Origin: Candidatus Flavonifractor merdavium
GTDB taxonomy: Bacteria; Bacillota; Clostridia; Oscillospirales; Oscillospiraceae
Assembly (NCBI GenBank): GCA_019119335.1
Contig: DWXF01000006.1
Coordinates: forward strand, 1-64,000
Reading direction: 5' to 3'
Length of the DNA: 64,000 nucleotides
Below, in pieces: positions 1,827 through 63,957 of the stretch (position 1 is the stretch's first letter; each line of letters opens with the position of its first letter). The notes beneath the pieces were generated by a model. That model was not told where the DNA came from and did not search any database. It worked only from the letters and a program-made list of their open reading frames with translations. Both the position numbers and the translations under genes were made by a program.

Positions 1827-1835
1827 AATATAACA
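1827..1835 (-). promoter_or_regulatory. Putative extended -10 promoter element for glgA
   Basis: The minus strand reads TGT-TATATT, an extended -10, about 35 bases before the glgA start. No convincing -35 box is seen at 16-18 bases, which fits an extended -10 promoter. Confidence 0.4.
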
Positions 1836-1863
1836 CATCCGGCCCGCTTTTCCCAGCCCCTCT

Positions 1864-1886
1864 TGGAAATTTCAGAAAAATTTCCA
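1864..1886. repeat. AT-rich 9-bp inverted repeat upstream of glgA
   Basis: TGGAAATTT and AAATTTCCA are perfect arms around a 5-base loop. The repeat lies between the end of the STAS-kinase gene and the glgA promoter. It could be an operator or a weak transcript end; the low GC content argues against a classical terminator. Confidence 0.35.
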
Positions 1887-1903
1887 CACTTTCTCCAAAT
1901 CCG

Positions 1904-3076: not shown

Positions 3077-3107
3077 CCGGTTCCCTCCTTGCCCGCGCCC
3101 TGTGATG

Positions 3108-3671: not shown

Positions 3672-3728
3672 TCCTCATTCCTCCCTGTCCTGTCCCGGCC
3701 GCTCTGGGTATAGGCGGGTTTTTGTTTT

Positions 3729-3757
3729 GGATTACCACAGAAGACGCGGACTGTCAA
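3729..3757 (-). promoter_or_regulatory. Possible promoter for the HD/STAS-kinase unit
   Basis: A perfect TTGACA on the minus strand (3752-3757) is followed after 17 bases by TAATCC, a poor -10. The gap is AT-rich relative to its neighbours. Only the -35 is strong. Confidence 0.35.
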
Positions 3758-3818
3758 GTACAAGTTTCACCGCCCGTCCTCTCCTCCGCCGCCTTTCCCA
3801 TTCTTAAGGTTCCGGCGC

Positions 3819-3848
3819 TTGCGCTTGCAAAGGACCCTATTATATAAT
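3819..3848 (+). promoter_or_regulatory. Possible promoter for the AAA/VWA pair
   Basis: TTGCGC (3819-3824), an 18-base spacer and a perfect TATAAT (3843-3848), about 60 bases before the AAA ATPase start. Confidence 0.5.
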
Positions 3849-3908
3849 GAAACACACATTTTTACAGGCAAAAGCGGCGGTTTGCCTCCGCGCGCCCGAA
3901 GGAGGATT

Positions 3909-4967
3909 ATGAATCTCACCATTACCGTCAATCACAAGCAGCTACTGGACATTCTGCTGAATGTGGGGCTGGTCCGCCCGGTGTTTATCTGGGGCGCCCC
4001 CGGCATCGGGAAATCCGCCATTGTGGAGGAGTTCGCCCACAGCCTGGGGCTGGAGTGCGTCTCCCTGCTGGGCAGCCAGCTGGCCCCGGAGGACATCATC
4101 GGCGTGCCCCAGATCAAGGACGGCTTCAGCCAGTTCTGCCCGCCCCGCTCCATCGCCCGGCAGGAGCCCTACGTGCTGTTCCTGGACGAGCTGAACGCCT
4201 GCACCTCCGAGGTGCAGAAGGCCTTCTACTCCCTGATCCACGAGCGGCGCATCGGGGAATACCATCTGCCCGAGGGGTCCATCGTGCTGGGGGCGGGCAA
4301 CCGGGCCCAGGACAACGCCATCACCCGGCCCATGTCCTCCGCCCTTATCAACCGGATGTTCCATGTGGAGCTCACCGCCAGCCCCCGGCTGTGGCTGGAG
4401 TGGGCGGGGCAGCACAACATCCACCCCTACGTCTACGACTACATCACCAGCCGGCCGGACCACCTGTGGTCCAAGCCCCCCAAGAGTGAGGAGCCCTTCT
4501 CCACCCCCCGCGCCTGGCATATGCTCAGCGACGCCATCCACAGCTGGGGCCCGGACATCGACGTGGACAGCCTGCGGGTGCTGGCCGCCGGCTGCCTCAC
4601 CCCCCAGCACGCCACCCAGTTCCTGGCCTATATCCGGCAGATACGCAGCCAGTACGCCCTGGACAAGATCCTGTCCGGCCAGCAGCCCTGGCCGGACAAG
4701 CCGGAGGAGCGGGACGTGCTCTACTTCCTGGCCCAGTCCCTCCGGGCCCGGCTGGTGAAGGAGCTGCCCCCGGAGCGGAGCCGGCTCAGCGCCGACAGCC
4801 GCGCCCTGGTGCTCCAGGCCAAGGACCGCATCACCGAGCTGGCCGACCTGAGCCTGGAGATCGCCCGGATGGCGGTGACCCCGGAGGACGGCCGGGAGCT
4901 GCCCGACTGGTTTGTGGTGGAGCTGTTCCGGGACCTGCCCCGGCTGGCCGACAAGAGAAACGGATGA
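3909..4967 (+). CDS. MoxR-type AAA+ ATPase
   Basis: A 352-residue cytoplasmic ATPase. The Walker A motif is GAPGIGKS (29-36), Walker B is YVLFLDE (88-94), and the sensor-1 asparagine follows GAGN near residue 131. The order and spacing match MoxR-like ATPases, which act as chaperone-like remodelling factors for a VWA partner. The ATG at 3909 follows GAAGGAGGATT; an upstream in-frame ATG lacks a ribosome site. Its stop overlaps the start of the next gene (ATGA), so the two products are made in a fixed ratio. The VWA/metallopeptidase-like partner encoded next is the likely client or adaptor. Confidence 0.88.
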   Translation: MNLTITVNHKQLLDILLNVGLVRPVFIWGAPGIGKSAIVEEFAHSLGLECVSLLGSQLAPEDIIGVPQIKDGFSQFCPPRSIARQEPYVLFLDELNACTSEVQKAFYSLIHERRIGEYHLPEGSIVLGAGNRAQDNAITRPMSSALINRMFHVELTASPRLWLEWAGQHNIHPYVYDYITSRPDHLWSKPPKSEEPFSTPRAWHMLSDAIHSWGPDIDVDSLRVLAAGCLTPQHATQFLAYIRQIRSQYALDKILSGQQPWPDKPEERDVLYFLAQSLRARLVKELPPERSRLSADSRALVLQAKDRITELADLSLEIARMAVTPEDGRELPDWFVVELFRDLPRLADKRNG

Positions 4968-6742
4968 GCGGCAGAAAGCAGCAGAAGGCCAACCCGGCCC
5001 TGGATGCCTTTCAGGCCGGGTGCGGCCTGGTGGCCCAGCATCCGGTGCTGGGGCCGCTGATGAAGCAGGCCACCGCCCATTTTGACGACAGCTACCCCAT
5101 GGCAAAAGAGGACTGGGCGTGGATCACCGCCAACGGGGACCTGTACGCCAACAGCCACCGCCGGGCCGCCCCCCAGGAGTGGGCCTATGTGGCGGCCCAC
5201 TGCCTGCTCCACCTGGCCCTGGGCCACATCCGGGAGGACCGGGCCGGAGACCCGGTGTGGAACGCAGCCTGCGACTGCGTGGCGGCCCGGTACCTGTCCG
5301 ACCTGCACATCGGCACGCCGCCGGGGGAGCTCTCCGCCCCCCTGCCCCCCAACACCCGGGAGGAGGAGGCCCTCTACCGCTGGCTGAAGGAGCACAGCGA
5401 CGACGCCTATTTCCGTTTCTCCACCATGAGCGGCGGACGGCCGGACCTGGTGTGGGAGCCCATCCGCGCCAGCTGGTGGCAGGGCCCCACCGACTGGCGG
5501 CAGCTCTTCGCCGAGAGTCTCCGGGACGCCCTGCGCTCCGCCGTGGACTACGCCGGGGGCGTCTCCACCCCGCCGGGGTCCCACAAAAAAATGGGGCCCA
5601 TCCAGCGGGCCCGGGAGTGGTTTTTATCCAGCTATCCCCTGCTGGGGGGCGTGGCCTCCGGCTTCCGGCTGGTGGACGACCCCCTGACCGTCCAGCGGAT
5701 GGACGTTCCGGTGGCCGCCATCTCCATGCACCTGCGGGAAATTTATGTCAACCCCGTTGCCGGACTGACCGAGGAGGAGTGGCGGTTTGTCCTGGCCCAC
5801 GAGTACCTCCACGCCGCCCTGTGCCATGAGGCAAGGCTGGGCAAGCGGGACCCGGAGCTGTGGAACGTGGCCTGCGACTATGTGATCAACCAGTGGCTGC
5901 GGGACATGGAGGTGGGCTCCATGCCAGAGGGGCTGCTCTTTGACCCGGAGCTGCAGGGCCTGTCGGCGGAGAGCGTGTACGACCGTCTGGCGGTCAATCT
6001 GCGCAAGTACAAGCGCATGGCCCAGCACGACATCCGCTTCGGCCCGCCGGACTGGGCGGCCTCCAAAGACTTTGTGGATCTGGACAGCTGGTGCCGCTCC
6101 GCCATTCAGCGAGGGCTGGACTATCATCAGGCCCATGAGCGGGGCTATCTCCCCGAGGGGCTGGTGGAGGAGATCCGGGCCCTGTCCCAGCCCCCCATCC
6201 CCTGGGACGTGGAGCTGGCCCGGTGGTTCGACGAGCGGTTCGAGCCCCTGGAAAAGCGCCGCACCTATGCCCGGCTCAGCCGCCGCCAGTCGGCCACGCC
6301 GGATATTCCCCGCCCTTCCTGGCATCTGGAGGAGGCGGCCCGGGCGGGTCGCACCTTCGGCGTGCTGCTGGACACCTCCGGCTCCATGGACCGGGCTCTG
6401 CTGGCCGCCGCCCTGGGCTCCATCGCCAGTTACAGCGCCGCCCGGGACGTGAGCCGGGTGCGGGTGGTGTTCTGCGACGCCGCCCCCTACGACCAGGGCT
6501 ACATGGAGGCGGCCGACATCGCCGGCAGCGTCAAGGTCCGGGGCCGGGGCGGCACGGTGCTCCAGCCGGGGGTGGAGCTGCTGGAGCACGCCCCCGACTT
6601 TCCCAGACAGGCGCCGCTGCTGGTGATCACCGACTGCGAGTGCGACCGGCTGAACCTGTACGGCCGGGACCACGCCTTTCTGGTGCCCCGGGGACGCAGT
6701 CTGCCCTTCCCGCCCAAGGGGCCGGTCTTTTACCTGGAATAG
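4964..6742 (+). CDS. DUF2201-type protein: duplicated metallopeptidase-like domain plus VWA-like domain
   Basis: A 592-residue soluble protein, translationally coupled to the AAA ATPase. It contains two similar zincin-like stretches. The first reads HCLLHLALGH (79-88) and is followed by DPVWNAACDCVAARYL. The second reads HEYLHAALCH (279-288), a full HEXXH-type motif, followed by DPELWNVACDYVINQWL. The C-terminal third is a VWA-like domain with the metal-site motif DTSGS (470-474). The second copy keeps the catalytic Glu; the first has Cys in that place. Architecture fits the putative metallopeptidase/VWA family (PF13203 plus PF09967) that pairs with MoxR ATPases. No signal peptide. A strong terminator follows, so this closes a two-gene operon. 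Confidence 0.85.
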   Translation: MSGRKQQKANPALDAFQAGCGLVAQHPVLGPLMKQATAHFDDSYPMAKEDWAWITANGDLYANSHRRAAPQEWAYVAAHCLLHLALGHIREDRAGDPVWNAACDCVAARYLSDLHIGTPPGELSAPLPPNTREEEALYRWLKEHSDDAYFRFSTMSGGRPDLVWEPIRASWWQGPTDWRQLFAESLRDALRSAVDYAGGVSTPPGSHKKMGPIQRAREWFLSSYPLLGGVASGFRLVDDPLTVQRMDVPVAAISMHLREIYVNPVAGLTEEEWRFVLAHEYLHAALCHEARLGKRDPELWNVACDYVINQWLRDMEVGSMPEGLLFDPELQGLSAESVYDRLAVNLRKYKRMAQHDIRFGPPDWAASKDFVDLDSWCRSAIQRGLDYHQAHERGYLPEGLVEEIRALSQPPIPWDVELARWFDERFEPLEKRRTYARLSRRQSATPDIPRPSWHLEEAARAGRTFGVLLDTSGSMDRALLAAALGSIASYSAARDVSRVRVVFCDAAPYDQGYMEAADIAGSVKVRGRGGTVLQPGVELLEHAPDFPRQAPLLVITDCECDRLNLYGRDHAFLVPRGRSLPFPPKGPVFYLE

Positions 6743-6775
6743 CTTCCGGCGGAAACATGGCATTGGGATATTTTA

Positions 6776-6811
6776 AAAAACGTGAGCCCCATTGGCGGGG
6801 CTCACGTTTTT
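6776..6811 (+). terminator. Rho-independent terminator after the AAA/VWA operon
   Basis: Perfect 15-base arms including a GC-rich core (CGTGAGCCCC / GGGGCTCACG) with a 6-base loop and a run of T. Confidence 0.93.
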
Positions 6812-6823
6812 CCTGTACCGGCG

Positions 6824-6852
6824 GCCTAACCGACGAATTCCGGCGGTTAGGC
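6824..6852. promoter_or_regulatory. 9-bp inverted repeat upstream of the sensor-like gene
   Basis: GCCTAACCG and CGGTTAGGC are perfect arms around 11 bases, about 20 bases upstream of the -35 below. Position suggests an operator; the binding factor is unknown. Confidence 0.5.
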
Positions 6853-6871
6853 AACGAATTTCGTCATATCA

Positions 6872-6900
6872 TGGACGGGCAGGCAGGCAATCCATATAAT
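6872..6900 (+). promoter_or_regulatory. SigA-type promoter for the sensor/membrane gene cluster
   Basis: TGGACG (6872-6877), 17 bases, perfect TATAAT (6895-6900), with the first gene starting 30 bases later after GTCAGGAGGG. Confidence 0.65.
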
Positions 6901-6929
6901 AGGAGCAGGCTGTCAGGAGGGTCGTATCC

Positions 6930-8171
6930 ATGCATGATTTTTTGACTGTCCTTGTGCGCATCATCGCTGCCGCCGTGCAGACAAACGGGGCATACCGCCT
7001 GTATGGGGTCTATTTTGACCGCCAGTCCGCGGACAAAAACAAGGAATGGGCCGGCTTTCTCCTCTGCTTTCTGCTCTGCGGGCTGAAGGCGGTGCTGAAC
7101 ACCCCGCCGGCAGTCAACGGAGCGCTGACCATCGGCATCTACTGCGGGCTGGCCTTTTTGTACGCGGGCACTGTGCTGGGCCGGCTGGCGCGGGCGCTGG
7201 GGATCGTGGCGCTGATGGTCCTGTGCGAGGGACTGGTGGCTGGACTCATAGTCTTTTTCCCCCTCCCCCCGCGCGCCGCCTGGATGACCGGCAACATGCT
7301 GTCTCAGCTGCTGTTTCTGATGATCTCCCTGAGCCTGAAACGGCTCCACATGCCGAAAACCAGCCCCCGGCTCTCCCGGCTGTATTGGCTGGCCATCCTC
7401 TGCCTGCCCACCGGCACGCTGGCCGTCCACATTCTGCTCATCTTTGTCTTTTACGACCCGGCGGGAAATCCCATTTTCCTGCCGGTCTCCATTATGCTGA
7501 TGCTGATCAACCTGCTGACCTTCTATGTGCTGGACCGGCTGGAGGAATACAGCGCCGCCTATTACGAAACGGAGCTGCTGGCCCGGCAGAACCAGGCCTA
7601 CCGGGCGGAGTTTGAGCTGATGCGCCAATCCCAGCAGCAGGTCAGCGCGCTGCGCCACGACATGAAAAACCACCTGGCGGTGGTGCGGCAATACGCCGCC
7701 GCGGGGCAGACGGAGGAGCTGGGGCGGTATCTGGACCGCTGCCTGGAGCAGCTGGCCCATCCCGGCTTTGTCCATACCGGCAACCCGGATATCGACAGCA
7801 TTCTGAACTACAAGCTGGGCCAGGCGGAGCGGGCCGGGGCCAGGCTGACGCTGGACGTGCGGCTGCCGGAAAACGTTACGGCGGACGCCTTTGATTGGAA
7901 CATCATTCTGGGCAGCCTGCTGGACCACGCGGTGGAGGCGCTGGAAAAGAGCCGGGAGAAGCGGCTCTCCCTCTCCCTGCGGGTGGACCGGGGCATCTTT
8001 TATCTGAACATTTCCTACGGCTATGCCGGTTCCGCAGCCCAGGCGGAGGGGCCCGGCGGCCCGGGCGGCTCCCTTGTCCAGCGCGCCATAGACAAGTACC
8101 ACGGAACGCTGGACGTGAACTGCACCGGGCAGGTATGCACCGTGGCGGTTATGCTCTATCTGGAGCCGTAG
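6930..8171 (+). CDS. AgrC-like GHKL sensor protein with degenerate ATPase boxes
   Basis: A 413-residue membrane protein. About six hydrophobic segments fill residues 1-200, followed by a coiled dimerisation region with the H-box SALRHDMKNHL (His about 243), as in AgrC/VirS-type peptide sensors. The ATP-binding part is eroded: the N-box reads ILGSLLDHAVEAL where active kinases have N-L-L-D-N-A, and the G-box glycines are replaced by an irregular Gly-rich stretch (EGPGGPGGS). No LytTR response regulator or AgrBD-type peptide gene lies next to it. It may therefore be a sensor without kinase activity, a phosphatase, or a scaffold. ATG at 6930 with a good GGAGGG site. It begins a run of membrane genes all on the plus strand. 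Confidence 0.75.
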   Translation: MHDFLTVLVRIIAAAVQTNGAYRLYGVYFDRQSADKNKEWAGFLLCFLLCGLKAVLNTPPAVNGALTIGIYCGLAFLYAGTVLGRLARALGIVALMVLCEGLVAGLIVFFPLPPRAAWMTGNMLSQLLFLMISLSLKRLHMPKTSPRLSRLYWLAILCLPTGTLAVHILLIFVFYDPAGNPIFLPVSIMLMLINLLTFYVLDRLEEYSAAYYETELLARQNQAYRAEFELMRQSQQQVSALRHDMKNHLAVVRQYAAAGQTEELGRYLDRCLEQLAHPGFVHTGNPDIDSILNYKLGQAERAGARLTLDVRLPENVTADAFDWNIILGSLLDHAVEALEKSREKRLSLSLRVDRGIFYLNISYGYAGSAAQAEGPGGPGGSLVQRAIDKYHGTLDVNCTGQVCTVAVMLYLEP

Positions 8172-8195
8172 GCTGAAGACGGGGAGGAAAGCTAG

Positions 8196-9398
8196 ATGCA
8201 AACTGCAAAGCGCGAGCATGTGCTGTCCGGTCTGGTGGGGGCCTTTCTGGGCTCCCTGATCGGCGTGGCCTGCATTGTGGCGGTGGGCCAGCTGGGCTAT
8301 GTGGCCTCGTTCTGCGGCGTGGTGCTGGCCGTCTGCGCAATCAAGGGCTATGGGCTGCTGGGCGGCGCCATGACCCGGAAGGGGGCGGTGATCGCCTCCA
8401 TTCTGACGATTTTAATGACCTACCTGGGTAACCGGCTGGACTTTGCGGTCAGCGTGGCCCGCACCTTTGATATAGACATATTTTCCGCCTTTCGGGCGCT
8501 GGACTCCCTGCTGAATACCGAATATACCGTGTCCAGGGCCTACTGGGGCAACCTGGTCCTGCTGTATCTGTTCACCCTGGTGGGGGCGGTGCCCACGCTG
8601 TTTGCGGCCTTCCGCCACGCCGGCCGGGACAGCGCCCCGTCGGAGCCCGCACCCCAGCCGGCCCCCGAACCTGCTCCTGAGCCCCCTCCGGCAGCGCCTT
8701 CGGAGGCCCGCCGGGCTTTTACGGGCTCGCTGTTTCACGCCCTGCTCCCCTTCATCGGCCTGTTTTTGGGGGTGCTGGTATTCTGGCTCTCCCTCACCCC
8801 CGCCGTGTTGAACCTGCTGGTGGGACAGGCGGAGTCGCCGGAGGCGCTGCTGCGGGGATATCGCACCTGGTATATCCTCCTCATCGGCGCGGCGGTGGTG
8901 GCCGTCCTGCTGCCGGTGGCGGGCTCTGTCATCGCCATCAAAAAGGCGGATATCTCCCTCACCCTGCTGGGACTGGTGGTGGTGTCCGTCGGTTTCCCGC
9001 TGTTTTTGGGGCTGGCCATGCTGGGCCAGGAGGATGTCCCCGGACTGCTGGCCCGGAGCGGCGAGGATCTGGCCCAGCTGGAAAGCGGACAGCTGGAGCA
9101 GGCCACGGTATGGCTGAGCCCCAGGACGCAGCAGGAGGGGCTCCCCGGCCCCTACACCGAAGGCCAGCCGGAGCCGGTAACCCAGTACAGCGCCACGGGC
9201 GCCAGCGCGGACCCCACCTGGACGCCATTCTACATACCGGATTGCCTGGGCTTTGCCCCCGACCGGCAAACGCTGTATAACGGAAACGAGAGCATCAGCT
9301 GGAACGAGGAAAATTCCCAGCAGTACCGCCTCTCCTATACCACGCACTTCCATCTTGTGGTATCTGTGGAGCCGGTGGGGGATGAGGCCGGCGGATGA
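8196..9398 (+). CDS. Multi-pass membrane protein with Pro-rich linker, function unknown
   Basis: A 400-residue protein not recognised as a known family. Three to four hydrophobic segments lie in residues 10-140, then a Pro/Ala/Glu-rich linker (PEPAPQPAPEPAPEPPP), then three more hydrophobic segments (about 180-280), and a hydrophilic C-terminal domain of about 115 residues. The polar linker between two membrane bundles suggests two modules. The ATG at 8196 is eight bases from GGGGAGG, and it follows the sensor-like gene by 24 bases, implying one transcript. No catalytic motif is visible. It could be a sensor, a transporter-like helper or an envelope protein. Confidence 0.7.
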   Translation: MQTAKREHVLSGLVGAFLGSLIGVACIVAVGQLGYVASFCGVVLAVCAIKGYGLLGGAMTRKGAVIASILTILMTYLGNRLDFAVSVARTFDIDIFSAFRALDSLLNTEYTVSRAYWGNLVLLYLFTLVGAVPTLFAAFRHAGRDSAPSEPAPQPAPEPAPEPPPAAPSEARRAFTGSLFHALLPFIGLFLGVLVFWLSLTPAVLNLLVGQAESPEALLRGYRTWYILLIGAAVVAVLLPVAGSVIAIKKADISLTLLGLVVVSVGFPLFLGLAMLGQEDVPGLLARSGEDLAQLESGQLEQATVWLSPRTQQEGLPGPYTEGQPEPVTQYSATGASADPTWTPFYIPDCLGFAPDRQTLYNGNESISWNEENSQQYRLSYTTHFHLVVSVEPVGDEAGG

Positions 9399-9450
9399 AG
9401 CCGGACGGGGAACTTGCAATCAAAGAATCCGGTTTTATGGAGGTCGGGAC

Positions 9451-9675
9451 GTGGGACTGATATTCTTTCTGGCGCTTTTTGGGGCCCTTGGCTTTCTGGG
9501 CTCGGCCATCGCCTGTCTGGTTCTCACCTGGCAGTATCAAAAAAGCCGCCCGGGGGCGAAGCTTTCCATCGTGCTGCGGTGGGTGGGCTGCGGGGTGATA
9601 CTGCTGCTGGGGGTGGAGTGCGCGCGGTTTGCAGCGGCCGTATACCACGCCATGGTCACCATTTTTCCCCACTGA
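9451..9675 (+). CDS. Small two-helix membrane protein, GTG start
   Basis: A 74-residue protein with two strongly hydrophobic segments (about residues 1-25 and 41-65) joined by a short basic loop (QYQKSRPGAK). A longer open frame extends upstream into the previous gene, but GTG at 9451 has an ideal GGAGGT site six bases before it, so the short form is preferred. Not a recognised family. It sits between two larger membrane genes and probably belongs to the same transcript. Confidence 0.65.
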   Translation: MGLIFFLALFGALGFLGSAIACLVLTWQYQKSRPGAKLSIVLRWVGCGVILLLGVECARFAAAVYHAMVTIFPH

Positions 9676-9735
9676 AAAAACACATCAAAAACTGCCCGCG
9701 TTCTACTGGCGGAAGAAGGGAGAAACTCATATTTT

Positions 9736-10572
9736 ATGGCGTTTAAAATTGGATCTTTGCTCTTTCTGCTGATATTTGGATCGTTTGTACTGGCGCGGAT
9801 CTACGCCGTGGGCCCCCTGGTCTGGCTCAAGCGGGCGGCGCTGCGGAGCCGGGCCCTGGAGGGCACGGACCGCCGGGAGCTGGTGGACCGGGTCCGGCAG
9901 CTGCTGCCCCAGGCCAACGACGGCAACGTGATCTTTTCCCTGCACCGGGAGAACTCCTCCAGCGGCGGCAGCAAGGTGACGGTGATAAGCACCACCTATT
10001 ATTACAACGTATTTGTGGTGGACGGGGATTTTCTCTGGGTGCTCCCCATGGCGTACGACAAGCGGCGGCGGAACTATCAGCTGGGTACGCCCGTCCGGTT
10101 CTCCGCCAGCGACGTGCGGCAGGTCCGCCTGACCGGCAAGCACGGGAAAACGCTGACCTTCCACTTCCTGCTGGAGCTGGACGGCCGGAAGCTGGAACTG
10201 GCTATGGCGCTGACGCCCTACTGCTTCCGCCTGAACAAATATTATCCCTTTACCCTCATGCAGGAGGAGGCCTGCGAAAAGGCCCGGCAGACGGCTGAGC
10301 GGATGGCCTTTATCGCCTGCAGCCTGTCGGCAAGCGCGCTGGAAAAGGAACGTCTGAAGGACGAGTGCGGCGATTATGCCCTCTATGCCGTCTGTGCCAG
10401 CGTGTTCGGCCTTATGTGTACGCCCACCGAGAGCCCGATCCCCGTGCTGGCCTGTTTTGCCATCTCCCTCATTCTGTTCGGGGTAATGCTGTCCAAAAAG
10501 CAGGCGCCGAAAGTCAGCGCCGTCCTGGTGCTCCTGGCGGCGGTGGGAGCCTATCTGATGATGCGCCCGTAG
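9736..10572 (+). CDS. Membrane protein of unknown function
   Basis: A 278-residue protein with an N-terminal membrane anchor (residues 4-28), a soluble middle domain rich in beta-type patterns (residues 60-185, including KVTVISTTYYYNVFVV), and two hydrophobic helices near the C-terminus (about 215-277). The layout resembles membrane-tethered sensory or PH-like domains, but I cannot name the family. Start at the ATG; the ribosome site (GAAGGGAG) is rather far upstream. The downstream neighbour also has an anchored PH/GRAM-like layout, so the two may work together. Confidence 0.65.
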   Translation: MAFKIGSLLFLLIFGSFVLARIYAVGPLVWLKRAALRSRALEGTDRRELVDRVRQLLPQANDGNVIFSLHRENSSSGGSKVTVISTTYYYNVFVVDGDFLWVLPMAYDKRRRNYQLGTPVRFSASDVRQVRLTGKHGKTLTFHFLLELDGRKLELAMALTPYCFRLNKYYPFTLMQEEACEKARQTAERMAFIACSLSASALEKERLKDECGDYALYAVCASVFGLMCTPTESPIPVLACFAISLILFGVMLSKKQAPKVSAVLVLLAAVGAYLMMRP

Positions 10573-55766: not shown

Positions 55767-56453
55767 TCAGATTCCCAGCGGCAGCGTTCCGGTGACGCTG
55801 CGCTTGATGTAGCCGCTGAGCATTTCTTTCCAGTGGGCCTCCATGGCAGCCTGAGCGGCGGCGGGGTCTCCCCCGCGGATGGCCTCTACCGTCTGACGGT
55901 GAAAGCTGACGCTCTTCTCCAGGGTCTCCAGGGCATAGTGGTCGGCTGCAGCCCGGGTAACGCGGTGCATCTGGTTGTTGATCTGATTCAGGATGTCAAC
56001 CAGCCGCTTGTTGGCGCAGTTTTGACTCAGCAAATCATGAAATACAAAGTCCTCGTGGGAGATCTCGCGGGGGGAAAGGAGGCCCTCCTTCAGCATACGC
56101 TCCTCCCGGCTCACGGACTCCTCCATACGATTCAAAAGGCTGTCCGTATGATTCTGGGCAATCAAAAAAGCGGCCAGGCCATCGTTGGCTGTCCGCAGCT
56201 GATAGAGCTCCACAATGTCGTCAATGGTCACATAGGGAACCATGGCGCCCCGATTGGGAATGAGATTCACAAACCGGTCCTGCGCCAAACGGATCAGCGC
56301 CTCCCGCACCGGAGTCCGGCTGACGGCGAATTGCTTGCACAGCTCATTTTCAATCAGGAATGTACCGCCAGGATATTTCCCGTCAATGATCTCGTCACGC
56401 ACAGTAAAGTAGATTTGATTGCTCTTGTTGGCATCGTTTGACTGCTTAGCCAT
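55767..56453 (-). CDS. GntR-family regulator, FadR/FCD type
   Basis: A 228-residue repressor. Residues 15-75 form the winged helix (YFTVRDEIIDGKYPGGTFLIENELCKQFAVSRTPVREALIRLAQDRFV) and residues 90-215 the helical FCD ligand-binding domain with the metal-site Asp/His positions in HEDFVFHDLLSQ and SVSFHRQTVEAI. It is divergent from the MFS/hydrolase operon. The palindrome ATTGTATACAAT over the MFS -10 box fits a FadR-type operator. It probably represses the operon until its substrate or intermediate appears. Confidence 0.92.
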   Translation of the reverse strand: MAKQSNDANKSNQIYFTVRDEIIDGKYPGGTFLIENELCKQFAVSRTPVREALIRLAQDRFVNLIPNRGAMVPYVTIDDIVELYQLRTANDGLAAFLIAQNHTDSLLNRMEESVSREERMLKEGLLSPREISHEDFVFHDLLSQNCANKRLVDILNQINNQMHRVTRAAADHYALETLEKSVSFHRQTVEAIRGGDPAAAQAAMEAHWKEMLSGYIKRSVTGTLPLGI

Positions 56454-56506: not shown

Positions 56507-56536
56507 ATTATTTACCAATGTGCGGGTAAATGTCAA
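56507..56536 (-). promoter_or_regulatory. Promoter of the GntR gene
   Basis: TTGACA (56531-56536), 18 bases, AATAAT (56507-56512) on the minus strand. Confidence 0.7.
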
Positions 56537-56618
56537 GCAAATTGCGCCACTTTTCTGAAAAAACTTAAAGGAGCGCGGGGTTCTGGCAGGCGCGTTATAT
56601 TGGATGTATAAAATAAGC

Positions 56619-56647
56619 TTGACAAAGGTATTCAGATTGTATACAAT
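56619..56647 (+). promoter_or_regulatory. SigA promoter of the MFS/OCH/FAH operon
   Basis: TTGACA (56619-56624), exactly 17 bases, TACAAT (56642-56647). The rest of the 300-base gap between the GntR and MFS genes holds the divergent promoter described above and nothing else I can identify. Confidence 0.88.
56636..56647. promoter_or_regulatory. Probable GntR operator over the -10 box
   Basis: ATTGTATACAAT is a perfect 12-bp palindrome that contains the TNGTNTACNA core typical of FadR-subfamily sites. Its right half is the -10 of the MFS promoter, so binding would block RNA polymerase. Confidence 0.8.
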
Positions 56648-56753
56648 GTGAATGCAGAAAAGCCCACCCTGTTTCTGGCAGCAGGGAACGCTCCTTCGGC
56701 AGACAGACGGCGGCGCGCAGCACAACATCCTATGAGAGAAAGAGGTTGAGGAA

Positions 56754-57995
56754 ATGTCAAATCCAATTGAAAAGGCTTCGGAAAACAAGACCATCAAATT
56801 CGGCGCGGTCATGTCCATTATCTGCGGCTTGATTCTGTCCATGGGCGCCATCCACATGGACACCATCAACTGGATCCTGCCCACCATCGCCACGGACCTG
56901 GCTTCGGGCAACAGCACCCTGATGGTGACCTCCGGATTCTTCTACGGCATGATGGTAGGCCACGTCATTGTCGGCCCCCTCTCCGATATGATTGGCAAAA
57001 AGAAGACCATGGTCTTCGGCTTTCTCATTTGTATCGTGGGCGCCGCCATCGGCTCCCAGGCAAGCGGGCTGGGCGGACTGATTGCCGCCCGTCTGCTCCA
57101 GGGCGTGGGCGGCGCAGCCTCCTCCAACGCCGCCCGGGCCGTGGGCGGCGACGCCGGCAAGGGCCGCAAGTCCGCCATGGCCCTGACCTTCATGCAGATC
57201 TGGTCCGCCGCCATTCCCATTATCCTGCCCCTCTCCGGCAAGTGGGTGGGCAACAGCTTCGGCTGGCCCGCCATCTTCTGGCTGCAGGCCGGCATCTGCG
57301 GCATTCTGTGCATTCTGGTGCTGATCTTCGTGCAGGAGACCTCCGAAATCGCCGGCAAGGGCTGCGTCAAGCGGATTTTCGGCGAGGTCAAGAGCTGCCT
57401 GGCCACCCCTGAGTATGTGTTCTTTGTGCTGTGCTTTGCCTTCAACATGGCCACCTTCTTCCTGTATTCCGGCTCCATGTCCTTTGCCATGGTGACCGAG
57501 CTGGGCATGGACAACAGCCACTATGCCAACGTCTACGCCTGGGGCGCGGTGGCCATGACCATCTTCGCCTTCCTGGGCCGCACCTTCATCGCCCCCAAGG
57601 TCAATCCCTCCGCTATCATCAAGACGCTGAACCTGGTCCAGGTGGCCGTGGCGGTCTTTTTTGCCGCCGCCTTCATCGGCGGATTTGCCGACTGGCGCTA
57701 CATGCAATACATGCTGTGGGTCCTGCCCGCCGTCCAGGGTATCGTGCTCCCCGTGGCCATGTCCCTGGTAATGAACGCCTCCGGCAAGGCCACCGGCACC
57801 GGCGCCGCCTTTATGGGCTTTGTCCAGTATCTCTTCTCCTCCATCACCACCTCCATCCTGGCCACCGTCAAGGAGGGCGGCTCTGTGGGCCAGTACATCG
57901 GCATCATGATGATCATTACCGCCAGCTGTTCCTTCATCGCCTGTATCTTCGGCAAGCGGTGCCTGCTGAAGAAGGACCCCAACGCCGTCATCTGA
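56754..57995 (+). CDS. MFS transporter (Bcr/CflA-like DHA1 type)
   Basis: A 413-residue transporter with twelve helices. GPLSDMIGKKKTMVFGF is the MFS loop 2-3 motif, and ARLLQGVGGAASSNAARAVGGD resembles the Bcr/CflA motif. In this operon with catabolic hydrolases an importer, or an exporter of the products, is equally possible from sequence alone. ATG at 56754 follows GAGGTTGAGG. It is the first gene after the GntR-controlled promoter; a hairpin separates it from the hydrolase genes. Confidence 0.9.
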   Translation: MSNPIEKASENKTIKFGAVMSIICGLILSMGAIHMDTINWILPTIATDLASGNSTLMVTSGFFYGMMVGHVIVGPLSDMIGKKKTMVFGFLICIVGAAIGSQASGLGGLIAARLLQGVGGAASSNAARAVGGDAGKGRKSAMALTFMQIWSAAIPIILPLSGKWVGNSFGWPAIFWLQAGICGILCILVLIFVQETSEIAGKGCVKRIFGEVKSCLATPEYVFFVLCFAFNMATFFLYSGSMSFAMVTELGMDNSHYANVYAWGAVAMTIFAFLGRTFIAPKVNPSAIIKTLNLVQVAVAVFFAAAFIGGFADWRYMQYMLWVLPAVQGIVLPVAMSLVMNASGKATGTGAAFMGFVQYLFSSITTSILATVKEGGSVGQYIGIMMIITASCSFIACIFGKRCLLKKDPNAVI

Positions 57996-58030
57996 GCGGG
58001 CCTTCCGTCCTTCTGCCGCCCGACCTGTTT

Positions 58031-58065
58031 CGACCCCGCCCCGCCGCCTTGGCAGGGCGGGGTCG
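58031..58065 (+). terminator. Intercistronic hairpin after the MFS gene
   Basis: CGACCCCGCCC / GGGCGGGGTCG are 11-bp perfect arms with a 13-base loop and no T-run, so it may attenuate or protect the transcript rather than end it. Confidence 0.55.
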
Positions 58066-58123
58066 GACAAAAATATCCTTCTTACGCCACGCAAGCCTGA
58101 AATCAAATAAAGGAGAGAAGCAT

Positions 58124-58975
58124 ATGTCTTACGTTTATGACAAGAGAAAGCCCTACCGAACCTACCTGGAGGAATATGCGCCCAAGTGGGACGGCATGGC
58201 TCACCTGCGCCGGGACGAAAACGGCATTCTGGAGGTCCGCTTCCACACGGACGACGGTCCCGTCCGGTTCTGTGAGGCTATTCACGCCGGGTATCTGGGC
58301 CTGCTGCATGACATCAGCCACGACCCTGACAACGAAATTGTCATTCTGACCGGTACCGGGGACAGCTTTGTGGCCCTGTCTGACCCCGAAATGTCCGTGG
58401 AGTTCCCCACCTATACCTCCTCCGTGACCTACGACTGGTGGTATCTCACCGCCACCCGGGTGCCTCTGGCCTGGCTGGACATTCCCGTTCCCGTCATCTG
58501 CGCCCTCAACGGCCCCATCACCATCCATCCGGAATCGGTGCTGCTCTCCGACTACATCATCGCCGGCGACAACGCCCTCACCGTGGACCGGCACATCCAG
58601 GATGCCGGGTGCGCCCCGGTGGACGGCGTGAATATCCTGTATGAAAAGCTGCTGGGCGTCAACGCCGCCCGGGCGCTGCTGCTGAACAGCGGGGTCATCG
58701 ACGCCCAGCGGGGCAAAGAGCTGGGCATCTTCGCGGAAGTGGTGCCCCACGGCACCGAGCTGGACCGGGCCTGGGAGTTTGCCAGAGATCTGATCAAGCG
58801 GGTGCCCTCCCGCATGGTCCGCCGCATGACCCGCGAAATCTTTACCCAGAGCCTCCGGGAGGCTTTTATGAAGGATATCCGCTCCAGCCTGTGCCACGAG
58901 TGCTATTCCTCCGAGCTGCGGACCGACTCCAAGCCTGAGGAGGGCCACAAGAACATGATCAACAAGGAGCTGTAA
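58124..58975 (+). CDS. 6-oxocamphor hydrolase-like crotonase 1 (putative beta-diketone hydrolase)
   Basis: A 283-residue crotonase-fold enzyme. From memory it aligns well with Rhodococcus 6-oxocamphor hydrolase (OCH): VILTGTGDSF, the HPE segment in NGPITIHPESVLLSD, and the active residues map to H54, H135, H157, D167 and E259 (OCH H37, H122, H145, D154, E244). OCH cleaves a C-C bond between two carbonyls (retro-Claisen) without CoA. Start at ATG 58124 behind AAAGGAG. It lies upstream of an FAH hydrolase and a second OCH-like gene, which suggests cleavage of a cyclic or linear 1,3-diketone. The exact substrate is unknown; other crotonase reactions are not excluded. Confidence 0.78.
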   Translation: MSYVYDKRKPYRTYLEEYAPKWDGMAHLRRDENGILEVRFHTDDGPVRFCEAIHAGYLGLLHDISHDPDNEIVILTGTGDSFVALSDPEMSVEFPTYTSSVTYDWWYLTATRVPLAWLDIPVPVICALNGPITIHPESVLLSDYIIAGDNALTVDRHIQDAGCAPVDGVNILYEKLLGVNAARALLLNSGVIDAQRGKELGIFAEVVPHGTELDRAWEFARDLIKRVPSRMVRRMTREIFTQSLREAFMKDIRSSLCHECYSSELRTDSKPEEGHKNMINKEL

Positions 58976-59003
58976 CAGGCTCCTTCCGGAAAGGGTGAAA
59001 AAA

Positions 59004-60077
59004 ATGAAGCTGGTAACATTTGCCGTGGACACCCCCGTGGGTGAGATCCGCCGGGTAGGCGCCATTCGGAAAGACGGCCTTTATGTGGACCTGGCCGCGG
59101 GCCGGGAGGCATATCTGAAGTCCAAAGGTGTGGAGCAGGCCTATATCCAGGCCCAGCTGGACTGCCCCAGCGACATGCTGGCATTTATCCGGGCCGGGGA
59201 GGACGCCCTGAAGAAGGGCTATGAGGTACTGGACTTTGCCGCTGACAGGGCGCCCGGCAAGGAGGATGGGCTGACGGTGGTATACGAGCCCGCCTCGGTG
59301 CGTCTGCTCACCCCCATTCCCAGACCCAACACCATCCGCTGCTTCTCCCTCAGCGAAAAGCACATGCTCAACGGCATCAAGTCCATGCAGGACACCGCCG
59401 CCTGGGGCGGCACCAAGCCCTCCCTGACCAAGCTGCCCGACGAGTGGTACAACCTGCCCACCTACTATAAGACCGGCACCACCGAGATCTACGGCCCTGA
59501 CGAGCTGGTGCCCTGGCCCAGCCTCACCGACCTGTTCGACTATGAGCTGGAGATCGCCACCATCATCGGCAAGCGGGGCCGCAACGTGCCCGAGGAGGAG
59601 GGGGAGAGCTACATCTTCGGCTGGACCCTGTACAATGACTGGAGCACCCGGGACTGGCAGAACCGGGAAATGAGCATCAACCTGGGACCCAGCCTGTGCA
59701 AGGACAACGCCTCCTCTCTGGGGCCCTGCATCGTAACCCGGGACGAGTTCGACCTGTACAACGCCCACTTCACCATCCGGGTCAACGGCGAGGTGTGGTC
59801 CCAGACCATGGTGGACCTCTACTTCCCCCTCAAGCATCTGGTGGAGTATGTAACCCGGGTGCAGACCGTCTTCCCCGGCGATATCTTTACCAGCGGCACC
59901 CTGCCCTTCGGCGCCGGCTGCGAGCTGAAGAAGTGGATCCCCCAGGGCGGCGTCATCGAGTTCGAGGCCGAGGGGATGGGAATTTTGCGCAACTACATAG
60001 GCAAAAAGGGCGAGCCCGCCCCCCTGCCCGCCGCCCAGCGGCCCTATTTGAAGGTGGTCCGGGGCGAGGACGTGTAA
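59004..60077 (+). CDS. Fumarylacetoacetate hydrolase (FAH)-family protein
   Basis: A 357-residue enzyme. The metal triad of the FAH fold is E181, E183 (DYELEIATIIG) and D212 (WTLYNDWSTRDWQ); the C-terminal TVFPGDIFTSGTLPFGAG loop is typical. FAH enzymes hydrolyse C-C bonds next to carbonyl groups or act as hydratases, isomerases or decarboxylases on 2-keto acids. ATG 59004 is preferred over an in-frame GTG nine bases upstream. It sits between the two OCH-like genes, so three potential C-C hydrolases are encoded together. Confidence 0.88.
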   Translation: MKLVTFAVDTPVGEIRRVGAIRKDGLYVDLAAGREAYLKSKGVEQAYIQAQLDCPSDMLAFIRAGEDALKKGYEVLDFAADRAPGKEDGLTVVYEPASVRLLTPIPRPNTIRCFSLSEKHMLNGIKSMQDTAAWGGTKPSLTKLPDEWYNLPTYYKTGTTEIYGPDELVPWPSLTDLFDYELEIATIIGKRGRNVPEEEGESYIFGWTLYNDWSTRDWQNREMSINLGPSLCKDNASSLGPCIVTRDEFDLYNAHFTIRVNGEVWSQTMVDLYFPLKHLVEYVTRVQTVFPGDIFTSGTLPFGAGCELKKWIPQGGVIEFEAEGMGILRNYIGKKGEPAPLPAAQRPYLKVVRGEDV

Positions 60078-60086
60078 CCGCCTAAA

Positions 60087-60132
60087 AACCGGCCGGCGGC
60101 GGCTGTCTCCGGGAGCGCCCCGGCCGGCGGTT
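60087..60132 (+). terminator. Imperfect GC-rich hairpin between FAH and OCH-like gene 2
   Basis: AACCGGCCGG pairs with CCGGCC-GGTT across a bulge, followed by TTCTTCTTT. It is a possible attenuator in the 149-base gap. Confidence 0.35.
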
Positions 60133-60226
60133 CTTCTTTCCGACTGAACGCGCGATATGGTTTATTCCCGTGAGAGCCACAGGGATAAGCTTGATAGATT
60201 CCATCAGGGGAAAGGAGAATACCAAT

Positions 60227-61111
60227 ATGTCCAATCAGCAGTACGCGCACAAGTTTGAACTGGGCGTGCCCTACCGCACCTATCTGGAGGATTACGCGCC
60301 CAAGTGGGAGGAGCTGGCCTGGCTGACCAGAGACGAGGACGGCATCCTGACGGTTCAGCTCCACTGGGGGGATGACTCCTGCCGGTTCAGCGAGTCCGTC
60401 CACAGCGGTCTGGTGGGCCTGGCGCTGGATATCCAGCGGGATCCGGACAATGAGTGCGTCATCATCACCGGCACCGGCAAGGACTTCATGAACGAGCCGG
60501 ACAAGGCGGAGGCCCTGGCCGAGGGGGAAAAGGTCTACCCGCACAGCGCCACGTACGACTGGTGGTGGATGAACCAGACCCGCATCTTCAACGCCTTTAT
60601 CGATATCCCGGTCCCCGTGGTGGCCGCCATCAACGGCGGCTGCAGCTTCCACCCGGAAGTGTGGCTCATGTCCGACTACATTTTCGTATCTGACGACGCC
60701 TATTACGTGGACAAGCACGTGCTGGGGTCTCACTGTATTCCCGCCGACGGCCTGAATGAGCTGGTGGGCTACATCGTGGGCCGCAACCGGGTCAAGGGCA
60801 TCTTCCTGAAGGGCACCCGCATTGACGCGGAGATGGGGATAGAGCTGGGCCTGTGGCACGAGATCGCGCCCAAGGCAGAGCTGCTGGACCGGGCAAAAAC
60901 CTTTGCCAAAGAAAACATCCTTTGTCTGGAACCCATGCACCGCAGAATGTGGCGTGAGGTTTTTGTCCAGCCTTTCCGGGAGCTGATGGCCAAGACGGTA
61001 CGGGCGTCTCTGGCCCAGGAGGCCTATGCCGCCGAGCTGTGCGTGGTCAAGCCGGGCGAAAATCACGCGCTCCAGTTCCGGGAGGAATTCAGAAAGAAAA
61101 TGGGGTCATGA
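60227..61111 (+). CDS. 6-oxocamphor hydrolase-like crotonase 2
   Basis: A 294-residue crotonase similar to the first copy over its whole length (PYRTYLEDYAPKWEELAWL near the N-terminus; DPDNECVIITGTGKDF), so the two look like an old duplication. OCH catalytic positions are kept as H59, H142 (FHPEVWLMSD), H164 (VDKHVLGSHC), D174 and E265. The central loops differ, which points to different substrates or to a hetero-oligomer. Start at ATG 60227 with AAAGGAG. It ends the operon with a strong terminator. Confidence 0.78.
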   Translation: MSNQQYAHKFELGVPYRTYLEDYAPKWEELAWLTRDEDGILTVQLHWGDDSCRFSESVHSGLVGLALDIQRDPDNECVIITGTGKDFMNEPDKAEALAEGEKVYPHSATYDWWWMNQTRIFNAFIDIPVPVVAAINGGCSFHPEVWLMSDYIFVSDDAYYVDKHVLGSHCIPADGLNELVGYIVGRNRVKGIFLKGTRIDAEMGIELGLWHEIAPKAELLDRAKTFAKENILCLEPMHRRMWREVFVQPFRELMAKTVRASLAQEAYAAELCVVKPGENHALQFREEFRKKMGS

Positions 61112-61114
61112 GAC

Positions 61115-61155
61115 AATACGGCCGGCGCCTTTCGGCGCCGGCCGTATTTGTTTTT
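61115..61155 (+). terminator. Terminator of the GntR-controlled operon
   Basis: AATACGGCCGGCGCC / GGCGCCGGCCGTATT 15-bp arms, TTTC loop, then TTGTTTTT. Confidence 0.95.
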
Positions 61156-61162
61156 CCGGGGT

Positions 61163-61978
61163 TTACCGGACTGTGGCCCACCGCCGGCGCAGCCAGGGCA
61201 GCCGGATAAGCAGAACCAGCAGGAGCACATAGGGCAGCAGCGCGCCCATGTGGAACTGCTCAAAAAGGGAGTGGGCGGCGCCCAGCATGGTAATCCGTCC
61301 GGTTTCCGGTATCCTCACCTGGCCCTGGTCCTGAATATGGCGGGCCAGCCATCCGGACAGCGTGCCCGCGGCCGCGCCCTGCGCATCCTCCAGGGCGGAA
61401 AAGCCCAGGGTTCCGTCCACCATATCCTCGGGAACGGCCAGGGTAAAGCTGCGGGTATCCGTTCGCTCCAGGACCGTACCATCCTCCAGAACCACCTCCC
61501 GCACCCGGCGTCCCGGCAGCTGGGAGACATCAAACACAAAAGAGAAGCCGGATATCTGGGGAAACTGGTCCGCGCCGGATTCCGGGTCCAGCTGCTCGTC
61601 CTCTCCCAGCCGGGCGTGGGAAACCGCCTGCTCCAGCACCTGAAACAGCGTCTGGGCCTGTATGGTGACCACCCGGACAGGCTGATCCTGCCCGAACACA
61701 GCCTGGACGTCGCCGGCGGTGATTGTGCCTCCGGGCAGGCTTTGAACCAACAGCCCGCCGCAGACGATGGAGAGCTGGGCTCCGGTACCCGCCCGGAGGC
61801 TGTCCGCCACATAGCAGCCCAGGGCGGTTTCCTGAAGCCGGGCCCCGTAAGACCGGGAAGTGACATTGGGGGACATGGCCCCTTCGCTGGAGCCCAGCAC
61901 CGAGCCGGCGGCCCCCGCGGAGGAGAGCAGCAGGAAGATGCTCAGCAGCCAGCACTGCAATGTGCGCAGGGTCTTCAT
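61163..61978 (-). CDS. Stand-alone 5'-nucleotidase C-terminal domain protein, membrane anchored
   Basis: A 271-residue protein with signal peptide (residues 1-24), a 5'-nucleotidase C-terminal domain (ETALGCYVADSLRAGTGAQLSIVCGGLLVQSL; GTITAGDVQAVFG; TLFQVLEQAVSHAR) and a C-terminal helix before basic residues (LPYVLLLVLLIRLPWLRRR). The metallophosphoesterase half of normal 5'-nucleotidases is absent, and the substrate Arg of NGGGIR is replaced (CGGLLVQ). It overlaps the oppF stop (ATGA). It may bind nucleotides outside the cell for the peptide transporter operon or be a relic; catalysis by itself is unlikely. Confidence 0.78.
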   Translation of the reverse strand: MKTLRTLQCWLLSIFLLLSSAGAAGSVLGSSEGAMSPNVTSRSYGARLQETALGCYVADSLRAGTGAQLSIVCGGLLVQSLPGGTITAGDVQAVFGQDQPVRVVTIQAQTLFQVLEQAVSHARLGEDEQLDPESGADQFPQISGFSFVFDVSQLPGRRVREVVLEDGTVLERTDTRSFTLAVPEDMVDGTLGFSALEDAQGAAAGTLSGWLARHIQDQGQVRIPETGRITMLGAAHSLFEQFHMGALLPYVLLLVLLIRLPWLRRRWATVR

Positions 61979-62964
61979 ACGCGCTCCTTACAAACAGGGG
62001 AATCCGGCAGGGCATCCGGTCCGGCAAAATGACAGCTGACAAAATGCCCCGGGCTGACCTCCCGCAAGGCGGGCTGCTCCCGGCGGCACCGCTCCGCCGC
62101 GTGGGGGCACCGGGGCGCAAACCGGCAGCCCGGCTTCAAATTGACAGGAGAGGTAATCTCGCCCTCCATCAGCACCCGCTTGCGGCGGTTGCGGAGGCTG
62201 GGGATGGGGATGGCGGAGAGCAATCCTCTGGTATAGGGGTGAATGGGCGTGCGGAACAGCTCTTTACACGGGGCTTTTTCCACCATTTGCCCCATATACA
62301 TGACCAGCACATCGTCTGAGATATGCTTGACCACCGACAGGTCGTGGGTAATAAAGAGGTAGGACAGGCCCTTGCTCCGCTGGATCTGCTTGAGCAGATT
62401 CAGCACCTGGGCCTGAATGGATACATCCAGGGCGGAAACCGGCTCGTCGCAGACGATAAACTCCGGCTCCAAAGCCAGGGCCCGGGCAATGCCGATGCGC
62501 TGCCGCCGTCCGCCGTCCAGCTCATGGGGAAAGGCGTAGATCATATGCGCGGCGATGCCCACCAGCTCCATCAGCCCCCGCACCCGCTGCTCCAGCTGAT
62601 CCCGGGTCCGGCACACCTTGAAGATCTTCAGCGGCTCGGCAATCAGGTCCATGGCGCACAGCCGGGGATCCAGGGAGGACATGGGATCCTGAAACACCAT
62701 CTGCATCTCTTTCCGCAGCATTTTCCAGTCGGCCTTCCCCGCCTGCTCAATATTGCGGCCCTGAAATATAATCTCGCCGGAGGTGGACCGTTCCAGCCCT
62801 ACCAGCAGCTTGCCCAGCGTGGACTTTCCGCAGCCCGATTCTCCCACCACACCCAGGGTCTTTCCCTGCTCCAGCCGGAAGCTGATGCCATCCACCGCGT
62901 GGAGCGTTCCAGCGGCAATGGCAAAATCCTTTTTCAAGTTCTTTACTTCCAGAATAACGCCCAT
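61975..62964 (-). CDS. oppF: Oligopeptide ABC transporter ATP-binding protein, OppF type
   Basis: A 329-residue ATPase: Walker A GVVGESGCGKSTLGK, Q-loop FQDPMSSLDPR, signature LDGGRRQRIGIARAL (the usual S is D), Walker B FIVCDEPVSALDVS, and a C-terminal Cys-rich oligopeptide/dipeptide tail (PGCRFAPRCPHAAERCR). OppF and OppD form the heterodimeric motor of a peptide importer. ATG at 62964, six bases after oppD. Confidence 0.94.
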   Translation of the reverse strand: MGVILEVKNLKKDFAIAAGTLHAVDGISFRLEQGKTLGVVGESGCGKSTLGKLLVGLERSTSGEIIFQGRNIEQAGKADWKMLRKEMQMVFQDPMSSLDPRLCAMDLIAEPLKIFKVCRTRDQLEQRVRGLMELVGIAAHMIYAFPHELDGGRRQRIGIARALALEPEFIVCDEPVSALDVSIQAQVLNLLKQIQRSKGLSYLFITHDLSVVKHISDDVLVMYMGQMVEKAPCKELFRTPIHPYTRGLLSAIPIPSLRNRRKRVLMEGEITSPVNLKPGCRFAPRCPHAAERCRREQPALREVSPGHFVSCHFAGPDALPDSPVCKERV

Positions 62965-62970
62965 ACCGCC

Positions 62971-63957
62971 TCACTCCTTTCCTTGCCCATTCCCGGCCGC
63001 TTCCGCCAGCAGGCATTTGACCAGGTGGCCGGGGGCCGTCTGGACACAGGGCGGGCAGACCTGCGCACAGCGGGGAGTTGCCCGGGAGCAGCGAGGGTGG
63101 AACTTGCACCCGCCGGGCAGGTTGGTGGGATCGGGCATCAGGCCGGGAATGGGGGTAAGCATATCCACATCTTCATCCAGGGAGGGAATGGACTGGAAGA
63201 GTCCGATGGTATACGGATGGGCGGGGGACTCAAAAATATCCTCCAGCGTACCGCTTTCCACAATCTCGCCGGCGTACATGACGGCCACCCGGTCACAGAT
63301 TTCCGCCACCACGCCCAGGTCGTGGGTAATCAGGATCATGGCGGTATTCAGCTCTGTTTTCAGCCGCTTCATCATATCCAGCACCTGAGCCTGGATGGTT
63401 ACATCCAGGGCGGTGGTGGGCTCGTCGGCAATGAGCAGCTCCGGGTTGCAGGCCAGCGCAATGGCGATGACCACCCGCTGCTTCATGCCGCCGGAAAACT
63501 GATGGGGATATTCCCGGCCCCGCTGGGCCGGGATGCCCACCATCTCCAGCATCTCCAGCGCCCGCCGTTCGGCCTGGCTTTTGCTGAGCTTGTTGTGGAG
63601 CAGAACCACCTCCGCGATTTGGTCGCCCACCGGAATCACCGGGTTGAGCGCGGTCATCGGGTCCTGAAAGATCATGGAAATATGGTTACCCCGAATTTCC
63701 CGCATCCGCTTTTCCGGCTGCTCCAAAAGAGGCTTGCCGTCAAAATGGATGCTGCCTCCGGTGACCTTTCCGGGCGGATCGGGGAGCAGCCGCAGGACCG
63801 ACAGGGCTGTGGTGGTCTTTCCGGCGCCGGTCTCCCCCACCAGGCCCAGGGTTTCTCCCCGGCTCAGCGTCAGGTCGATGCCGTTTACCGCCTCCACCAC
63901 GCCTTCGCTGGTAAAATATTTGACCTCCAGATGTTCTATCCGCAGAAGCTCGTCCAC
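62971..63957 (-). CDS. oppD: Oligopeptide ABC transporter ATP-binding protein, OppD type
   Basis: A 328-residue ATPase: Walker [16 protein letters not shown], signature [12 protein letters not shown], Walker [15 protein letters not shown], and the tail [24 protein letters not shown] that holds a cluster in this family. The start is GTG at 63957 behind AAGGAGGGGAG. It directly follows the end of a permease gene and precedes oppF. Cargo: peptides, or other OppA/DppA substrates such as nickel chelates, not resolved here. Confidence 0.94.

Follow-up and report, generated by a model that had tools for sequence, protein, structure and literature searches.

Can an anaerobic gut bacterium import a 1,3-dicarbonyl compound and cleave it without coenzyme A (CoA)? 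The question is raised by a group of genes in a 64,000-nucleotide stretch of contig DWXF01000006.1 from Candidatus Flavonifractor merdavium (the window), which, to judge from its relatives, is an anaerobe of the Oscillospiraceae. Four open genes follow one another on the forward strand behind a promoter, as an earlier note on this DNA had described, and a terminator closes the series. They encode a major facilitator superfamily (MFS) transporter (56754..57995), a crotonase that we label CRO1 (58124..58975), a hydrolase of the FAH family (59004..60077), and a second crotonase, CRO2 (60227..61111), and are separated by gaps of 128, 28, and 149 bases. A GntR-family regulator of the FCD subfamily (Pfam matches to GntR at 3e-15 and to FCD at 6e-20) is encoded divergently on the reverse strand (55767..56453). 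That note also proposed that candidate C-C hydrolases are grouped here with a transporter and with a regulator of the ligand-responsive type, and the present analysis supports this. We favor, with moderate confidence, the reading that two convergent operons form a GntR-controlled locus for the import of a 1,3-dicarbonyl compound and its cleavage by CoA-independent retro-Claisen hydrolysis.

Both crotonases most closely resemble enzymes that act without CoA. Among solved structures CRO1 was matched best by the Anabaena beta-diketone hydrolase ABDH (PDB 2j5g, E = 1.1e-40) and 6-oxocamphor hydrolase OCH (PDB 1o8u, E = 9e-36), the best CoA hydratase scoring 3e-11. The order for CRO2 was OCH (6e-30), ABDH (7e-28), and a next match at 4e-11. 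The OCH/ABDH E-values are thus better than that of the best CoA hydratase by 29 orders of magnitude for CRO1 and 19 for CRO2. Over the parts compared, CRO1 shares 37% of its residues with ABDH and 33% with OCH; the corresponding figures for CRO2 are 30% and 32%. In a tree of 48 rows, a branch with 100/100 support parts all 15 ECH-type rows from all 33 OCH-type rows, and CRO1, its five orthologs, and CRO2 form a clade (support 100/99) at the end of a long stem (0.63). The tree carries a long-branch warning for CRO2, L076 (below), OCH, and others, and for this reason its inner order was not used. None of the best 25 crotonase-type NCBIfam models for each protein (of 46 and 44 matched) approaches its cut-off. 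Judged by sequence, both crotonases fall within the group of CoA-independent 6-oxocamphor/beta-diketone hydrolases, in agreement with the previous description of both as OCH-like.

CRO2 is 45% identical to CRO1 and 42-45% identical to CRO1 and its five orthologs alike. A recent duplication is therefore unsupported as its origin, and the split between the two predates the spread of CRO1. A possible nearest outgroup of the clade (support 95/79, on a long branch) is found in locus L076 (G902:C3:1000-19500, positions 7872-9990), where the gene is flanked by one for a cupin-like protein and one for an alpha/beta hydrolase and the third-His motif is of the usual kind, reading EAHFEPSG.

The active-site residues are largely retained. 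OCH His45, His122, Asp154, and Glu244, whose roles we in part presume, align with His54, His135, Asp167, and Glu259 of CRO1 and with His59, His142, Asp174, and Glu265 of CRO2. OCH Glu124 and Asp142 are also kept (Glu137 and Asp155 in CRO1; Glu144 and Asp162 in CRO2). Read across OCH columns 45, 122, 124, 142, 145, 154, and 244, the residues are HHEDHDE in OCH and ABDH, HHEDIDE in CRO1, and HHEDVDE in CRO2. A conserved third His (His157 in CRO1, His164 in CRO2) lies one residue before the column of OCH His145 in both proteins and in all five CRO1 orthologs, the latter judged by their shared motif TVDRH[IL]QDAG, as they were not among the 42 rows of the alignment. A different alignment (MAFFT, with one-residue gaps) returns His157 to the His145 column. 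The claim in the earlier note that all catalytic residues are kept consequently stands for His45, His122, Asp154, and Glu244, whereas the one-residue shift of the third His depends on the alignment. For ABDH, the catalytic residues are given as Asp153, His144, Glu243, and His43 (PMC3584854).

The FAH-family protein matches Pfam FAA_hydrolase (PF01557) at 8.5e-42 and, among solved structures, PDB 1gtt (E = 2e-22) as well as 8sky and 6iym. The metal-site motif E-x-E...D is present as Glu181, Glu183, and Asp212 at the aligned position, which we take to be candidate metal ligands, and His120 is found in addition. The gene is the only PF01557 match within its own assembly (2,758,476 bases); this assembly is 82% complete, so absences from it carry little weight.

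The first three genes of the operon form a conserved core. Two peptide patterns, run against 84,980 species genomes, matched 31 stretches, and three of these, a lower bound, encode relatives: L033 (Bacillota), L034 (Lachnospiraceae), and L035 (Oscillospiraceae, from goat omasum). Whole-genome searches with CRO1, in overlapping samples of 99 relatives, 391 genomes from the class, and 398 from the phylum, detected no close copy outside the genome of the window, and scans of viral_contigs yielded no relative. In the family of L034, three of 397 genomes matched CRO1, namely that of L034 itself, G1178 (80%), and, distantly, G902 (38%). A search of the window's own family with FAH matched two of 400 genomes, its own and G1381, which also holds CRO1. 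In all six loci with a CRO1 ortholog (>75% identical, the window counted), CRO1 comes immediately after an MFS gene and is itself followed within two genes by an FAH gene; as G1381 was found through its FAH, five of five loci are independent for the latter. The MFS orthologs in the five other loci are 63-82% identical to that of the window, and a second MFS gene is present in four of the six loci (L033, L034, L035, and L075). The gene order, which had been proposed as a check on the original description, therefore recurs as an MFS-CRO1-FAH core in five other Firmicutes genomes, the goat omasum genome included.

Between the genomes of the window, L033, L034, and L035, pairwise identities are 64-79% for RpoB fragments, 77-88% for CRO1, and 68-85% for MFS. 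CRO1 exceeds RpoB in all six pairs, as does MFS, by 1-4 points except in the pair L033-L034 (85 versus 64%). These values fit either horizontal movement or strong constraint, most clearly for L033-L034. The FAH proteins group differently, the window pairing with L033 (64%) and L034 with L035 (61%), with 31-36% identity across. The regulators track the MFS/CRO1 grouping, being of GntR type in the window and L035 and of LysR type in L033 and L034. Because two such divergent FAH types occupy the same slot, the FAH step is retained in spite of the change of enzyme.

The control region is conserved as well. The promoter, TTGACA-17-TACAAT (56619..56647, + strand), has 11 of 12 consensus matches and contains the palindrome ATTGTATACAAT (56636-56647), which is read as a GntR operator. 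The presence of a palindrome in the upstream promoter had been pointed out before, and ATTGTATACAAT is found letter for letter and with equal spacing in L035, whose regulator is 53% identical to that of the window. It occurs once in the whole 2,758,476-base assembly. A looser pattern, TNGTATACNA, has two matches in the window versus 0.06 expected, the other lying at 59278 inside the FAH gene. The 10-mer TTGTATACAA is common to the MFS promoter and the promoter of a convergent ABC operon of Opp/Nik type, where it lies at 67587-67596, 96 bases before the first gene, which encodes the binding protein. As TTGTATACAA occurs at four places in the assembly versus three for a reversed control pattern, the argument is one of position and not of number.

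The convergent operon, which ends at 61163 in the window, was absent from the earlier account. Its association with the core is reinforced by G1381 (L077/L079), a genome of another genus, in which MFS, CRO1, FAH, ABC, thiolase, CoA-transferase, and GntR genes lie on one strand. The ABC orthologs there are 47-73% identical and the regulator (in L079) is 50% identical to those of the window, and the thiolase and the A and B subunits of a 3-oxoacid CoA-transferase score above their NCBIfam cut-offs. The MFS promoter region of L077 carries TTGTATACAC, in which the operator has one mismatch. The earlier interpretation is weakened by the shift of the third His and by the distribution of CRO2, which is present in one of the six loci, that of the window; the L033, L034, and L035 genomes each have a single match to it, which is their CRO1. 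To call the pathway compact is also too strong, because in this other genus genes for an ABC importer, a thiolase, and a CoA-transferase join the core on one strand.

From the observed gene order, gene families, promoter/operator conservation, and co-conservation of the genes, we propose the following transport direction, effector, and sequence of reactions. The GntR repressor would bind the TTGTATACAA sites in both promoters and be released on binding the substrate or a breakdown product. Uptake of a small 1,3-dicarbonyl compound would be the task of the ABC importer, the MFS permease, or both. Its activated C-C bond would then be hydrolyzed without CoA by CRO1, and in the window also by CRO2, in the retro-Claisen manner of OCH and ABDH. 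FAH could perform a second, metal-dependent C-C cut or decarboxylate the resulting keto acid, which 3-oxoacid CoA-transferase and thiolase would convert to acetyl-CoA; these last enzymes are encoded in the cluster in the other genus and here presumably elsewhere in the genome. The C-C cleavage chemistry is proposed from family membership and gene context. The choice of a 1,3-diketone or a reduced phenolic ring as substrate, made in the earlier note, is unsupported. The module contains no gene for a phenolic-ring reductase, and what points to a reduced phenolic ring is consequently confined to the OCH-like genes beside genes for a beta-keto acid cleavage enzyme (BKACE) in sister genomes (below). 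Curcumin, grass-wax diketones, resorcinol-derived 1,3-cyclohexanedione, and phloroglucinol products were weighed as substrates, and the data favor none of them.

Several observations weigh against the proposed import and hydrolysis of a dicarbonyl compound. The column of OCH His145 (ABDH His144) holds Ile in CRO1 and Val in CRO2, and an AlphaFold2 model of CRO1, run on five sequences, was too poor for geometry (mean pLDDT 36). An FAH gene is found in none of seven annotated plasmid neighborhoods of OCH-like genes (an eighth is unannotated). The binding protein and one permease of the ABC operon have nickel or oligopeptide carriers as their nearest NCBIfam models, below cut-off, and in the window the operon has no thiolase or CoA-transferase gene next to it. 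The ABC gene of L077 lacks a good operator site (3 mismatches at best), and the LysR-type loci L033, L034, and L075 have no operator better than 2 mismatches. Lastly, the nearest NCBIfam models of the MFS protein (TcaB and Bcr/CflA, both below cut-off) are exporters.

The change at column 145 could mean that the CRO1/CRO2 clade has abandoned C-C hydrolysis for some other reaction without CoA, such as isomerization, hydration, or decarboxylation, leaving FAH as the sole C-C cutter. In the 42-row alignment His occupies this column in all 23 further OCH-like rows (25 of 25 with OCH and ABDH counted), the 15 ECH-type rows having Glu (12) or Phe (3), and the long stem leading to the clade would suit such a change of function. 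On the other hand, neither crotonase nor any of the five CRO1 orthologs lacks the shifted His, with CRO2 at 42-45% identity to the rest, and the remaining acidic and His residues of the active site are kept. Other members of the family vary by one residue ahead of the third His, and the MAFFT gaps restore the register. We judge a loss of C-C hydrolysis to be unlikely. Elsewhere in the site, Gln is found at column 45 in two of the 23 rows (L013 and L015), and in rows of the L036 type column 124 holds Asp and column 142 Val.

Detoxification in place of feeding was also considered, with the MFS protein exporting, and the hydrolases destroying, a diketone or triketone toxin of plant or microbial origin. 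The likeness of the transporter to multidrug exporters would agree with this, though at scores below cut-off. Catabolism is indicated instead by the co-conserved solute-binding ABC importer, which has the same operator in the window's own genome, and by the thiolase and CoA-transferase of L077, and we judge a purely protective role to be quite improbable. That CRO1 and CRO2 are ordinary CoA-dependent enoyl-CoA hydratases of a fatty- or aromatic-acid CoA pathway, as the Pfam label ECH_1 on both might suggest, is hardly credible and was rejected on the PDB rankings, the NCBIfam crotonase models far below cut-off, and the 100/100 branch of the tree, no acyl-CoA ligase or dehydrogenase being seen in the module.

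The remaining features of the region are as follows. An intrinsic terminator with a 15-pair stem and a T-rich tail (61115..61148, + strand) starts 3 bases past CRO2. The gap between MFS and CRO1 (57996-58123) holds a strong GC-rich hairpin without a T tail, and its folding is mildly stronger than that of shuffled sequences (z -2.3, a value equaled in 3 of 200 shuffles). For the segment from FAH to CRO2, folding is on a par with shuffled sequence (z -0.5). The genes of the ABC operon are all on the reverse strand. They encode a DppF-type ATPase (61975..62964) and a DppD-type ATPase (62971..63957), respectively 70% and 69% identical to their L077 orthologs, and, beyond the window to contig position 67490, two permeases and the family-5 binding protein (SBP_bac_5). 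The operon's last gene, both here and in the other genus, encodes a protein (61163..61978) with a hydrophobic N terminus and only the C-terminal domain of 5'-nucleotidase (PF02872, 8.5e-20), with no metallophosphatase part by Pfam; its L077 ortholog, in the same place, is 47% identical.

OCH-like genes occur in other settings. Those of sister genomes are approximately 30% identical to CRO1 and belong to another subfamily, and BKACE genes are present in five of their nine neighborhoods (L036, L038, L042, L043, and L044). These five share a thiolase (5/5), a 3-hydroxyacyl-CoA dehydrogenase (5/5), DUF362 (4/5), and CoA-transferase A/B (4/5), and three of them have a phosphotriesterase-family gene and three have two OCH-like copies. 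L037, L039, L040, and L041 contain no BKACE gene, and among them only the OCH-like gene of L040 is as close as roughly 2 kb to the end of its contig. For one L036 protein, ABDH and OCH are the sole PDB entries that reach E = 1e-10, and the L036 cluster (G004:C39, 2192-12773), with those of L038, L042, L043, and L044, is a candidate anaerobic pathway of diketone or ring cleavage. The window's own assembly has four BKACE genes (contigs C3, C13, C38, and C49), each in a different gene setting. One of them is in cluster L054 (G000:C49:29000-47000, positions 2-9928), together with a PF04199 cyclase, DUF362, 3HCDH, and thiolase. This cluster parallels that of L036 (DUF362 is 65% identical), with the cyclase instead of an OCH-like gene; a search of the whole assembly with CRO1 gave, besides CRO1 itself and CRO2, a single distant crotonase. 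OCH-like enzymes and cyclases may thus fill equivalent steps. A different setting is found on a plasmid of Paraburkholderia sprentiae (L065, 513-6768), where an OCH-like crotonase has genes for a P450, a ferredoxin, and a GMC oxidase as neighbors, a setting presumably resembling camphor-type terpenoid degradation. We tentatively suggest that OCH-type crotonases could be an overlooked second class of anaerobic C-C hydrolases with which Firmicutes of the gut and rumen open rings or diketones. One branch, that of CRO1 and CRO2 with a relocated catalytic His, would act with FAH in an import module that is switched by GntR or LysR and passes from family to family, and the other would replace the cyclase-type hydrolase in BKACE clusters for dearomatized phenolics.

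If the proposed function is correct, the locus would provide genes with which to test CoA-independent C-C bond hydrolysis in anaerobes and could explain the cleavage of dietary 1,3-diketones or dearomatized phenols by gut and rumen bacteria, and its operator would be a ready reporter for finding the substrate. No anaerobic gut system of this kind was found in the open-access literature searched, in keeping with the remark in the earlier note that such a system was unfamiliar.

Comparison with known systems places the locus as follows. OCH (PDB 1o8u; H122A variant 1szo), an enzyme of the aerobic camphor pathway, is likewise a crotonase that works without CoA, and shares the columns of His45, His122, Asp142, Asp154, and Glu244 with CRO1 and CRO2; the window proteins differ from it in about two-thirds of the residues compared and at His145. 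We know of no occurrence of OCH in an MFS-FAH module in anaerobes. ABDH (PDB 2j5g and 2j5s), the best solved match to CRO1, differs at the column of His144. The phloroglucinol pathway of Clostridium scatologenes (PGR, DPGC, TfD, and TAL) is described as an anaerobic retro-Claisen cleavage that ends in thiolase chemistry and also includes a reductase and BKACE (PMC10470551). Its DPGC, a Mn-dependent C-C hydrolase of the cyclase family, is the only gene-level example of CoA-independent C-C bond hydrolysis in anaerobes met in this analysis (PMC10470551). The window module has no DPGC-type cyclase, TfD-type dehydrogenase, BKACE, or reductase, and the BKACE genes of its assembly are all on other contigs. 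Hydrolysis of a dietary beta-diketone by a bacterium is exemplified by CurH, the curcuminoid hydrolase of Rhodococcus sp. no. 34 (PMC12981152), which resembles the activity proposed for the locus in its reaction. The enzyme family is established, and no such set of genes is known from it.

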